In this document: positions 48,237 through 51,607 of the stretch, piece by piece | How positions within the stretch are numbered: position 1 is the stretch's first letter | Layout: every line of letters starts with the position of its first letter | From: Pseudotamlana agarivorans | GTDB taxonomy: Bacteria > Bacteroidota > Bacteroidia > Flavobacteriales > Flavobacteriaceae | Assembly: GCF_001642835.1 (NCBI RefSeq) | Contig: NZ_LXEI01000006.1 | Coordinates: forward strand, 186,001-250,000 | Length of the DNA stretch: 64,000 nt | Direction: 5' to 3' | Notes under the pieces: generated by a model | The model's input: the letters and a program-made list of their open reading frames with translations, nothing else | Databases searched by the model: none | Told to the model about the DNA's origin: nothing | Program-made: the position numbers and the translations under genes

Positions 48237-48818
48237 TTAACCATGAATGGTTTCACTTTTTCCGTAGTTTTGAATCACTTCCGCTTCAAAATCAATGAGT
48301 TCTTTCCAGCGTTTTTCAACATCGACACCTTGACCGTATTGACGTGCAAATTTTAAAAAAGTTGTGTAATGACCGGCTTCACTAATCATTAAATCATGAT
48401 AAAACTTTGAAAGTTCGGGGTCTTTAATTCTTTTAGAGAGTAGTTTGAAACGTTCGCAGCTTCTAGCTTCAATCATCGCCGAAAATAAAAGCCTATCTAC
48501 CATAGATTGCACACGGTTTCCGCCTTTATTCATAAACTTATAAAGCTCATTAACATAACTGTCTTTACGCTCACGCCCTAAAGTGTAGCCTCTTTTCTTT
48601 ATGATATCATGAACCATTTGGAAGTGCTCTAATTCTTCTTTAGCCAGTTCCAAGAGTTCGGTAACCAAATCGGTATGCTCAGAATTTAATGTGATAATAG
48701 TTATGGCATTCGTAGCAGCTTTTTGCTCGCACCAAGCGTGGTCTGTTAATATTTCTTCTATGTTAGATTCTACAATATTAACCCAGCGTGGGTCTGTTGC
48801 TAATTTTAAACCAAGCAT
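48237..48818 (-). CDS. miaE: tRNA-(ms2io6A) hydroxylase MiaE-like protein
   Basis: A 193-residue ferritin-like di-iron protein. MiaE hydroxylates the isopentenyl side chain of ms2i6A37 in tRNA. The two ferritin helix pairs show LAKEELEHFQMVHDII and SEAGHYTTFLKFARQY with the metal ExxH motifs; a further Glu lies in SAMIEARSCERF. The start MLGLKLATDPRWVNI matches the family. The hydroxylase role is known for proteobacterial MiaE; the Bacteroidota version is assigned by homology. It lies between recG and mutS2, about 114 bases after the recG stop. Confidence 0.9.
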   Translation of the reverse strand: MLGLKLATDPRWVNIVESNIEEILTDHAWCEQKAATNAITIITLNSEHTDLVTELLELAKEELEHFQMVHDIIKKRGYTLGRERKDSYVNELYKFMNKGGNRVQSMVDRLLFSAMIEARSCERFKLLSKRIKDPELSKFYHDLMISEAGHYTTFLKFARQYGQGVDVEKRWKELIDFEAEVIQNYGKSETIHG

Positions 48819-48932
48819 ATCTTTTTTTTGTAAAAGTAGGAATTTTAATTTTTTGTTATTCTAGTGAAGTTGGAAATCTACAATGGCATTGTAGCATTAA
48901 AACAGATTTCTGTATCCCAAAGCATCATAAAC

Positions 48933-51479
48933 TTAACTGATGTAATTCCAAATGTTTTTAAACCTAGTAAGCTGTTTGTAGGTGTTTAATACCACTTGGT
49001 TTTCTGGAAGCGCCAATTTAGGGTCTGTTTTCAATAGGTTTTTTGCTTGATGTCTGGCGTGTTTTAATATGTCGTTATCCTTGATGATATCTGCAATTTT
49101 TAAGTTTAAAACGCCACTTTGTTGGGTGCCCATAATATCTCCCGGACCTCTTAAACGTAAGTCAACTTCGGCAATTTCAAAGCCGTCATTGGTCCTAACC
49201 ATGGTTTCCATGCGGGTTTTGCTGTCGGCACTAAGTTTGTGCCCCGTCATTAAAATACAGTAACTCTGTTCGGCACCACGCCCCACACGTCCGCGTAATT
49301 GATGTAATTGCGATAAACCAAAACGCTCGGCACTTTCGATAATCATAACCGAGGCATTAGGAACGTTAACACCAACCTCAATAACCGTCGTGGCTACCAT
49401 AATTTGTGTTTCACCTTTAATGAACCGCTGCATCTCAAATTCTTTATCGGCTGGTTTCATCTGGCCATGAACAATGGAAATTTGATATTTTGGCATAGGG
49501 AAGTCTCTCGCAATACTATCATAACCATCCATCAAATCTTTATAATCCATTTTCTCGCTCTCTTGAATAAGCGGATATACAATATAAATTTGTCTGCCCT
49601 TATCAATTTCATCTCTAATAAATCGGAATACATTCAGGCGATTTTTATCGAAGCGATGCACCGTTTTTATAGCCTTTCTTCCTGGAGGTAATTCATCGAT
49701 TATAGAGATGTCTAAATCCCCATAAACCGACATGGCTAAAGTTCGTGGAATAGGGGTAGCGGTCATCACTAAAATGTGTGGTGGGATGGAAGCCCCTCTA
49801 ATCTCCCCAGAAGGGAGACTTTTTAGTTGCTTTTCAATATAATCTAAAACATTATCAATGTCGCCGGTTATTTGTTCATTGGTAAACCTAATAACTTTAA
49901 AACCTATTTCATTTAAAATTTTAGTACGTAAATCATCGGCTTCTTTTTGTTCAATCGTGTTGTGATAACCGCCATCAACTTCAATAATTAGATTTTTTTC
50001 AATACAGATAAAGTCAACAATAAATTCATCAATGATATGCTGTCTTCTAAATTTTAAATCGAGTTTTTTACCTCTTAAACATTCCCATAAAATTTGTTCT
50101 GCTTGAGTGCTGTTTTTTTTGTTTTCAGATTGAAGTTCCTTTAATAATTTATAAGTTGAAGGTCTGGCCGTCATGTATTTTTGAAGTACCTTTTTGGCTT
50201 CCTCCCTTTGGGAGGATTGAGGAGGGCTTGTCGGGCCCTTCCGCCATAATTTACTTCTTTGAGCAACTCCAAAACGGTGTTGTTCGTCGACAATAGCAAG
50301 GCCTAAATTTTTAAATTTCACCTTGTCTTCAAGAAGGGCGTGAGTGCCAATTAAGATTTGTAATTCACCATTTTCTAGCGATTCGTGAATTTTTCGTCTT
50401 TCTGAAGTTTTACTTGAACCAGTAAGCAGTAAAATGCTGATATTTAATGGTTTACATAGTTCTTGTAATCCGTTATAGTGTTGGACTGACAAAATTTCAG
50501 TTGGGGCCATTAAGCAGGCTTGAAAACCGTTGTCAAGTGCCATGAGCATTGACATGAAGGCTACAATGGTCTTCCCAGAACCCACATCACCTTGTAAAAG
50601 GCGGTTCATTTGCGCATTGCTCCCTAAATCGGCACGAATTTCTTTTAAAACACGCTTCTGTGCACCTGTCAAATCGAAGGGTAATTGCTCGCTAAAAAAG
50701 GTGTTAAAGTAGTCACCTACTTTCGTAAATGGGAGTCCTTTTATTTTCGATTTATGCACTAAATTTTTAATAATTAATTGCAGTTGAATGTAAAATAATT
50801 CTTCAAATTTTAGTCGAAATTGTGCCTTAGAAAGTAGCTCCGAACTCTTAGGAAAATGCACATTAAAAAGCGCCGATGATTTGCTAATTAAGTGTAATTC
50901 TGAGCGCATATTTTCGGGTAAAGTTTCGGCAAATTTTCCGCCAGAATCGATAAATAATTGCTGCATGATTTTACATAAAACCCGATTGCTTATTCCTCGA
51001 TTTGATAATTTTTCGGTAGATGGATATACCGGTTGCATGGCCGAACGAATATTTTTTTCATGCTCTTCTACTAGCTCTAAATCGGGATGCGCCATACTGA
51101 ATTTATTTCCAAAGGCGTTGCATTTCCCAAAAGCGACATAAGGTTTGTTTGCTTTTAGGCTCTCACGAATCCATTTTTGTCCGCGAAACCAAACCAATTC
51201 CATTGTGCCTGTGTCATCCTGAAAGGTCGCGACTAGTCGTTTGCCTCGTTTTTGAGCGACTTCCTTAAAACCTGTTATTTTGCCAATAACTTGAACTTCA
51301 GCATTGGTTTGCTGTAATTCATTTATTTTATAATAGCGGGTGCGGTCTATGTATCTGTTTGGAAATAAATTGATTAAATCCTGAAAGGTATGTATGCCAA
51401 GCTCCTTGCGTAATAAATCGGCTCGACTCGAGCCTACGCCTTTTAAATAATCTATGGGAGTTTGTAGGTTTACAGACAT
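48933..51479 (-). CDS. recG: ATP-dependent DNA helicase RecG carrying an in-frame DUF559 endonuclease insertion
   Basis: RecG remodels stalled replication forks and Holliday junctions. The wedge domain (residues 50-200), Walker A (QGDVGSGKTIVAF), DEQHRFG, TATPIPRTLAM, and the C-terminal motifs (GRVGRGAEQSYCI; LRLRGPGDIMGTQQSG) are all intact. The protein has 848 residues against about 700 usual. The extra part, roughly residues 417-563, lies between motif II and motif III and is a DUF559 domain: ILWECLRGKKLDLKFRRQ, then EFIVDFICIEKNLIIEVDGG with D and ExD of a Vsr-like nuclease, then GFKVIRFTNEQI. The reading frame is kept at both junctions, so the protein is probably made as one chain. Helicase activity may or may not survive. 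Confidence 0.95.
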   Translation of the reverse strand: MSVNLQTPIDYLKGVGSSRADLLRKELGIHTFQDLINLFPNRYIDRTRYYKINELQQTNAEVQVIGKITGFKEVAQKRGKRLVATFQDDTGTMELVWFRGQKWIRESLKANKPYVAFGKCNAFGNKFSMAHPDLELVEEHEKNIRSAMQPVYPSTEKLSNRGISNRVLCKIMQQLFIDSGGKFAETLPENMRSELHLISKSSALFNVHFPKSSELLSKAQFRLKFEELFYIQLQLIIKNLVHKSKIKGLPFTKVGDYFNTFFSEQLPFDLTGAQKRVLKEIRADLGSNAQMNRLLQGDVGSGKTIVAFMSMLMALDNGFQACLMAPTEILSVQHYNGLQELCKPLNISILLLTGSSKTSERRKIHESLENGELQILIGTHALLEDKVKFKNLGLAIVDEQHRFGVAQRSKLWRKGPTSPPQSSQREEAKKVLQKYMTARPSTYKLLKELQSENKKNSTQAEQILWECLRGKKLDLKFRRQHIIDEFIVDFICIEKNLIIEVDGGYHNTIEQKEADDLRTKILNEIGFKVIRFTNEQITGDIDNVLDYIEKQLKSLPSGEIRGASIPPHILVMTATPIPRTLAMSVYGDLDISIIDELPPGRKAIKTVHRFDKNRLNVFRFIRDEIDKGRQIYIVYPLIQESEKMDYKDLMDGYDSIARDFPMPKYQISIVHGQMKPADKEFEMQRFIKGETQIMVATTVIEVGVNVPNASVMIIESAERFGLSQLHQLRGRVGRGAEQSYCILMTGHKLSADSKTRMETMVRTNDGFEIAEVDLRLRGPGDIMGTQQSGVLNLKIADIIKDNDILKHARHQAKNLLKTDPKLALPENQVVLNTYKQLTRFKNIWNYIS
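49790..49818. repeat. Terminal inverted repeat of the recG element, distal end
   Basis: Starts AAGCCCCTCTAATC and holds a hairpin TCTCCC (49802-49807) / GGGAGA (49813-49818). Translated in recG as LPSGEIRGA. It pairs with the repeat at 50200-50229 with several mismatches. Confidence 0.7.
50200..50229. repeat. Terminal inverted repeat of the recG element, proximal end
   Basis: The complement starts AAGCCCTCCTCAATC and holds a hairpin CCTCCC (50201-50206) / GGGAGG (50210-50215). Translated in recG as SPPQSSQREEA. Together with 49790-49818 it bounds the DUF559 insertion. Confidence 0.7.
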
Positions 51480-51607
51480 AACGAGGCGAATTTAATCAAT
51501 AAAAATAAAATGAAAACCCTTATTGAATTCTTAATATCTGGATGATTTTTGAAATTTTATTTTGAGAATTTAGAAGATTAATGAATTTTAACTAAAAGCA
51601 TTAAATG

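Follow-up and report, generated by a model that had tools for sequence, protein, structure and literature searches.

An in-frame nuclease insert in RecG of Pseudotamlana agarivorans is probably an unspliced, homing-type element of a large Bacteroidota family

What is a complete nuclease domain doing in the middle of the helicase RecG? The question is raised by a 64,000-nucleotide stretch of the Pseudotamlana agarivorans genome (contig NZ_LXEI01000006.1, positions 186,001 to 250,000; hereafter the window, from whose first letter all coordinates are counted), in which the recG reading frame is interrupted by a 440-bp insert that remains open throughout and encodes a DUF559 domain. A first-pass annotation of this DNA had left two options, a selfish element that lands harmlessly in frame or a newly combined helicase-nuclease. 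We favour the former, and put at about 0.72 the probability that the insert is an unspliced, in-frame, homing-type selfish element of a large Bacteroidota family, whose members would cut and home. This option is well supported by the occurrence of related inserts in many unrelated genes, by their palindromic ends, by a patchy distribution accompanied by scars and by the catalytic fold of a homing endonuclease. The features on which the argument turns are as follows.

48933..51479, minus strand: recG open reading frame, 848 residues, interrupted in frame (reading frame, Pfam, alignment to 1gm5, genome search)
49790..50229, minus strand: whole element, 440 bp, delimited by the outer edges of its inverted terminal repeats as read from the sequence, and compared with empty and scar-like alleles
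49824..50126, minus strand: DUF559 (PF04480) nuclease core (E 3.9e-32 on the genome, 9.2e-31 in the protein)
49821..50183, minus strand: modelled 121-residue nuclease segment including an N-terminal extension (KYMTARPS...) (pLDDT 91.0, pTM 0.84)
49790..49818, no strand assigned: terminal repeat 1, outer arm and hairpin, arms TCTCCC/GGGGAGA (sequence, hairpin placement, one covarying pair over 31 RecG copies)
50200..50229, no strand assigned: terminal repeat 2, hairpin TCCTCCC-AAA-GGGAGGA and outer arm (sequence, hairpin placement)

RecG is encoded by one open frame in which Pfam finds the wedge, OB, DEAD, Helicase_C and RecG C-terminal domains, and a complete DUF559 domain (residues 452-552, E 9.2e-31, 106 bits against a cut-off of 20.6) is enclosed by the two intact RecG halves, much as the first-pass annotation had described. 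Aligned to the solved RecG structure 1gm5, query residues 3-416 match chain residues 111-515 and query residues 569-815 match 519-763, with 152 query residues facing three reference residues at the insert. The 848-residue protein scores above cut-off with three RecG models (NF008165, 898.5 bits against 711; NF008168, 843.1 against 718; TIGR00643, 713.2 against 659.4) and below cut-off with several other RecG subfamily models, and it is the only RecG match in the genome (whole-genome search, E<=1e-60). A read-level error, which the annotation had named as something that would undo its claim, is very unlikely, because the insert is open at the same site in two of the five other genomes of the genus, one of which is a single-contig assembly.

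An intein is defined by its splicing domain, and no Hint or intein splicing model was among the nine Pfam families matched at E<=0.001 in the 848-residue protein; the earlier statement that intein and HINT motifs are absent holds, and we rejected an intein identity. A group I or II intron was likewise rejected, as Rfam gave no match of any family, catalytic RNAs included, around the nuclease (E<=1, window positions 48800-51600). Pfam found no transposase domain in the insert either. In agreement with the absence of splicing and intron signals, the DUF559 domain is predicted to be retained in mature RecG. A structure model of the whole protein (847 residues supplied) reached a pLDDT (predicted local distance difference test) of 56.6 and was set aside, whereas the isolated domain was modelled well.

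The edges of the insert start with AAGCCCCTCT and, on the opposite strand, with AAGCCCTCCT, each of which runs into a short hairpin. The ends are imperfect inverted repeats, each with its hairpin, and the boundaries 49790-50229 proposed by the first-pass annotation coincide with their outer edges. Sequences flanking the RecG site differ too much between alleles to delimit a target-site duplication. In recG orientation, terminal repeat 1 is the downstream and terminal repeat 2 the upstream end, and the insert as a whole has room for about 147 residues, of which the nuclease fold takes up about 120. Over the RecG copies, the right hairpin has T-A at pair 3-19 in 8 cases, C-G in 21, T-G in 1 and C-A in 1 (n=31 of 32, L150 giving no match; relatedness uncorrected), the two paired bases being the third codon position of a serine and the first base of an isoleucine or valine codon. 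This variation suggests that the pairing itself is kept. The proposed search for the same domain and repeats elsewhere in the genome was answered in part: one further DUF559 match exists, a free-standing gene on another contig, but the exact pattern CTCCCNNNGGGAG, the one palindrome sequence searched for, occurs a single time in the 3.8-Mb genome, inside the RecG element. The free-standing gene (locus L002, G000:C49:30896-31210, about 120 residues) has on either side repeats containing the palindrome CCCCTTGAGGGG and may represent a second family of palindrome-bracketed DUF559.

What kind of nuclease is it? The model of the isolated domain (pLDDT 91.0; predicted template-modelling score, pTM, 0.84) gave three Foldseek matches at E<=0.001, one to the endonuclease-like protein 3hrl (E 3.6e-7) and the other two to chains of 3r3p, which is the catalytic domain of the homing endonuclease I-Bth0305I (E 4.9e-5, template-modelling score 0.77 by target). 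A sequence profile search finds the same entries (3hrl, E 6e-30; 3r3p, E 9.8e-8), and PADLOC narrowly ranks a homing endonuclease model first (E 1e-5). In both fold and sequence the nuclease is akin to I-Bth0305I. Residues invariant in an alignment of 78 sequences (the window's own plus 77 chosen for diversity from a set of 164 elements described below, with the HsdR group, L054, L022 and L112 left out) include T26, E29, D57, E68, D70, H74 and D83, which resemble an active site. The strict motif E[VICLT]DG..H is missing from 9 of the 164 elements: four HsdR copies with EFDG, one with EADG, the RecG copy L054 with YY for YH, one truncated element and two decayed-looking LeuRS copies (L022 and L112). 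The nucleases of these last two stay in frame despite their lost conserved residues, as expected of decay after fixation. Among 17 RecG copies (136 pairs), the median ratio of nonsynonymous to synonymous substitution rates (dN/dS) is 0.097 for the nuclease and 0.067 for the RecG flanks, with saturation leaving it undefined in 51 nuclease pairs and 43 flank pairs; judged by these rates, the RecG-borne nucleases are under purifying selection.

Is the insert young, or an old and fixed part of RecG? Neither description fits. The genus is polymorphic, with the insert present in three of six genomes (G000, G004 and G005) and absent from the other three. The absence from sister species anticipated by the first-pass annotation was found in three of the five other genomes, but these three do not have plainly empty sites: they carry short in-frame loops, for example KGPTSPPQSSHGDGTIPPH, that resemble pieces of the insert, while other species have an uninterrupted KNTSPPH at that point of RecG. 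The scar-like loops suggest that the insertion predates these species. Across the family, 386 of 397 genomes gave a RecG match and at least 15 of the 386 an alignment across the insert. These 15 occupied genomes fall in 15 genera. Eleven of the genera have a further genome in the sample, and each of the 11 includes one or more congeners that show no alignment across the insert, a call that for some congeners was made from a split alignment only.

Among 68 distinct RecG sequences, 32 are occupied, 20 have a short uninterrupted loop and 16 a loop of intermediate length (proportions that are not frequencies, since the set comprises the best-scoring relatives plus 20 sequences picked as congeners of occupied genomes or for unusual lengths), and several of the intermediate loops hold recognisable pieces of one or both terminal repeats. 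Explaining occupancy on a tree of these sequences takes no fewer than 17 changes, of which well-supported (starred) branches force 12, and a single gain on the tree rooted on L155 would require 19 traceless losses; 22 of the 65 branches are unresolved, so these counts are approximate. Exchange of whole alleles would be an alternative to fresh insertion as the source of this patchy occupancy. Recurrence of the insert at this site in relatives had been named in advance as the mark of an old fixed domain. Many species do have it there, but members of one genus differ in whether the site is filled, and inserts of a similar kind occur in unrelated genes. The RecG insert is thus not a one-off recent arrival, and not simply a domain fixed long ago.

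These unrelated genes widen the question from one helicase to a family of elements. A search of 60 relatives with the DUF559 model found long open frames in other hosts, and a profile built from seven fused domains matched 162 of 395 genomes of the phylum at E<=1e-12. In a scan of named genomes the organisms named for the best 80 of 579 confirmed matches were Bacteroidota, as the seed predicts. Both profile and scan were seeded with fused copies from Bacteroidota, which over-represents fused copies and makes Bacteroidota the ground covered. Searching the fetched loci for open reading frames yielded 164 distinct DUF559 elements, selected for their likeness to fused copies, of which 131 lie in stop-to-stop frames of more than 250 residues.

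Around 32 host protein families carry a related DUF559 inside them in frame or joined to their ends, and Pfam or NCBIfam confirmed RecG, leucyl-tRNA synthetase (LeuRS), isoleucyl-tRNA synthetase (IleRS) and 30 further proteins as hosts. The hosts include LeuRS, IleRS, MetRS, MetH, methylmalonyl-CoA mutase and a class I synthetase (L174) that we take to be ValRS from short motifs, Pfam placing it only in the I/L/M/V group. Others are HsdR, HsdM, several other restriction-modification enzymes, UvrD-type and AAA_12 helicases and RNase H. Further hosts are CinA, MazG, urocanase, an ABC-F-like ATPase, a Ham1-family protein, YgbB/IspF, coproporphyrinogen oxidase, histidinol dehydrogenase, a GATase_5 amidotransferase, N-formylglutamate amidohydrolase, an M23 peptidase, DegT aminotransferases, UDP-GlcNAc epimerase, an aldehyde dehydrogenase-MaoC protein, a family-31 glycosidase and a His_biosynth protein (L107), presumably HisF by its motifs, for which Pfam gives the family only. 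LeuRS, IleRS and MetH presumably have at least two insertion sites each, again judged by motifs, and the ten first-site IleRS inserts examined all fall at profile positions of about 553-563.

For the synthetases, the interrupted gene most likely supplies the enzyme, because in the genomes examined it is the only one above the family cut-off: this was so for LeuRS in 10 of 10 genomes (a set of 11 with a LeuRS insert, less G007) and for IleRS in 10 of 10 (the 11 first-site loci, less L152).

Some hosts carry the nuclease at the N- or C-terminus instead of internally. In L107 and L111 (both HisF-like), L117 (RNase H), L113 (HemF), L210 (IspF), L004 (HisD), L099 and L106, a palindrome-coded linker joins DUF559 to the very start or end of the enzyme, perhaps through capture of a host start or stop codon. 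Two proteins hold two separate in-frame DUF559 inserts each: L180, a MetH frame of 1172 residues from a Flavobacterium metagenome-assembled genome (MAG), and L216, a LeuRS frame of 840 residues from a Sphingobacteriales MAG. In L126 (LeuRS) and L211, extra palindrome-like in-frame peptides adjoin the nuclease insert, as if solo ends had been inserted or nucleases deleted.

Do the palindromic ends belong to the family as a whole? We counted hairpins with a pyrimidine arm of six bases or more that lie no further than 150 bp from an element's end. Of the 128 fused elements, 104 have such a hairpin at one end or both and 77 at both; of the 33 free-standing ones, 24 and 18 do. Among control windows taken from other parts of these loci, 45 of 4611 have one (near relatives counted separately; 3 of the 164 elements skipped at locus ends). 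An earlier ad hoc hairpin score separated weakly, with 8 left ends, 10 right ends and 4 pairs of 88 elements passing the 99th percentile of controls, and terminal repeats did better (43 of 88). On the same 88 the pyrimidine-arm definition gave 54 left, 53 right and 43 both, against 24 of 1778 windows; it was picked after viewing the first output, so its contrast with controls is descriptive.

How the nucleases are related to each other bears on how they move. On a tree of 162 nucleases (two of the 164 were too short), host-site labels need 47 changes, against 112 when shuffled (0 of 200 shuffles as low), in an alignment of few columns with many unresolved forks and with labels taken from short motifs and confirmed for representatives with Pfam or NCBIfam. 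For the RecG nucleases, 32 in all, two changes are enough, and the four HsdR nucleases form one supported (starred) clade. A urocanase insert sits among the RecG nucleases on an unstarred branch (81/92), the second-site MetH nuclease of L180 groups with the first-site MetH nucleases (100/98), and the partner of a UvrD-family insert is a decayed LeuRS one on a long branch (98/88). The pattern reads as that of site-specific lineages with occasional apparent jumps. The urocanase insert (L154) comes from a Lutibacter MAG and is itself a possible jump between genes.

Our preferred explanation would account for these observations as follows. Each element consists of a DUF559 endonuclease domain of the Vsr/EDxHD homing type, in most cases flanked by palindromic sequence on one side or both; it stays open in one frame throughout and lies inside or at the ends of conserved, sometimes essential proteins, presumably at sites that tolerate extra residues. 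We infer that the fused protein is made, with the nuclease translated as part of its host and folding as an autonomous tethered domain, and that it cleaves DNA; in a recipient, it would cut the allele of its host gene that has no insert, and repair of the cut allele would copy the element in. Because nothing is spliced, an element would survive only where its insertion is in frame and harmless. A broader proposal, to which we give even odds, is that such 'spliceless inteins' form a distinct mobile class, an autonomous, palindrome-ended nuclease cassette that depends on translation inside a working host protein, spreads by allele-specific homing, occasionally jumps to new genes, leaves short in-frame peptide scars and so keeps supplying Bacteroidota proteins with inserted domains and extended loops.

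Several results weigh against this explanation. Identity in the nuclease is correlated with identity in the RecG flanks (r 0.80, 17 copies), which is what long co-inheritance predicts. The nuclease alignment rejects the RecG topology (approximately unbiased, AU, test, p 0.00055; 31 of 32 RecG copies, L155 left out), but 120-residue slices of RecG likewise reject the topology of the rest of RecG in 6 of 6 cases (p 0.0002-0.013); because of this failed control the test is uninformative on horizontal homing, and we rejected the incongruence as proof of it. Co-conversion tracts beside the RecG insert are not visible, with synonymous sites near saturation. Searches with the window nuclease as query found no close relatives on phages (2 records, 33-35% identity) or plasmids (39 records, all below 60%), and no vector is apparent from them. 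No pyrimidine-arm hairpin lies at either end of 24 of the 128 fused elements. Finally, the EDxHD homing enzymes described in PMC3943268 possess a long DNA-binding region, and the 440-bp insert has no room for a long modular one; target specificity would be unexplained unless parts of the host protein or the palindromes contribute.

Other explanations have to be set against the same evidence, and the main rival, which we consider unlikely, is a transposon-like unit in which the palindromic ends are what is mobile (as in REP or Rickettsia palindromic elements) and DUF559 moves or cuts palindromes instead of the empty host allele. Palindromes do flank fused and free-standing DUF559 genes alike, and some nucleases have apparently moved to new genes or sites (the L180 MetH, urocanase and UvrD-family inserts), but nuclease lineages are strongly tied to one host site, as allelic homing predicts, the insert lacks a transposase domain by Pfam, and CTCCCNNNGGGAG, in a search limited to that pattern, has no second copy in the genome. 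A domesticated helicase-nuclease, in which the domain is kept for a useful nuclease activity of RecG at stalled forks, seems to us more doubtful still. It draws on purifying selection close to that on RecG, on a single site common to many genera and on the loss of E[VICLT]DG..H from one RecG copy only, L054; the insert's absence and the scar-like loops within genera speak against it, and a badly folding insert would harm its host, which could by itself account for part of the constraint. What chiefly disfavours it, and with it the helicase-nuclease option of the first-pass annotation, is that related nucleases with the same kind of ends occur in LeuRS, IleRS, MetRS, MetH, histidine and haem biosynthesis genes and other hosts, tRNA synthetases and metabolic enzymes among them, to which fork processing is irrelevant.

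There is very little probability, in our judgement, that host genes passively carry a defence-related or repair nuclease, for example one of Vsr-like mismatch repair. In its favour, the Caulobacter DUF559 protein VsrA, called Vsr-like, causes an SOS response in cells without a cytosine methyltransferase, according to PMC12907096; Vsr itself appears further down in the fold search (1cw0, E 0.046), and PADLOC also matches DpdF (E 2e-5) and a methyl-directed restriction enzyme model (E 1.3e-4). The homing endonuclease catalytic domain is nonetheless nearer in structure and sequence, as is, by its small margin, the best PADLOC match, and no rationale in repair or defence is evident for fusion to such a range of unrelated proteins, though several hosts are restriction-modification enzymes.

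Selfish elements in essential genes are usually thought to require splicing, whether of RNA or of protein. The nuclease element described here seems to persist in single tRNA synthetase genes, in methionine synthase and in RecG without a sign of splicing, and in many Bacteroidota. If our explanation is true, it adds a route by which selfish DNA could create new domain architectures, and it would account for housekeeping enzymes that carry DUF559. Homing without splicing is also directly testable, as occupied and scar-like alleles coexist within one genus and empty alleles are found in close relatives. Open-access full-text searches, judged by titles and abstract openings and with subscription journals and preprints mostly outside their scope, gave, among the papers listed, none that describes in-frame DUF559 elements.

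How, then, does the element compare with known systems? With inteins that carry homing endonucleases it shares a nuclease domain, recurrent in-frame insertion at one site of a conserved gene, one-site lineages and a sporadic distribution, but the RecG insert has no splicing domain, appears to stay in the protein and has DNA palindromes for ends. Its catalytic domain is akin in fold and sequence to that of the EDxHD enzyme I-Bth0305I, which the PDB names 'Mobile intron protein' and which is long and multi-domain (PMC3943268), whereas here a nuclease of about 120 residues is fused to its host and intron signals are absent. Free-standing DUF559 proteins (3hrl-like, Caulobacter VsrA) belong to the same Pfam family, and 24 of 33 sampled free genes have a palindrome at one end at least, but they are unfused and most of those sampled branch outside the RecG, LeuRS first-site and MetH groups. 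Repetitive extragenic palindromic sequences with their REP-associated tyrosine transposases (REP/RAYT, or REPtron) likewise combine palindromes with a nuclease gene (PMC3733652), but RAYTs are tyrosine transposases, while here a Vsr/PD-(D/E)XK-type nuclease has palindromes bracketing its own gene. Rickettsia palindromic elements, as described in PMC10969869, are palindromic and lie in frame in unrelated genes, as do the elements described here, whose translation is predicted from open frames; they are about 150 bp long and encode a short conserved peptide, whereas ours spans 440 bp and codes for a nuclease, and the likeness drawn here is one of description. In short, its enzyme resembles I-Bth0305I, its ends resemble Rickettsia palindromic elements, and the places and manner in which it recurs resemble those of inteins.

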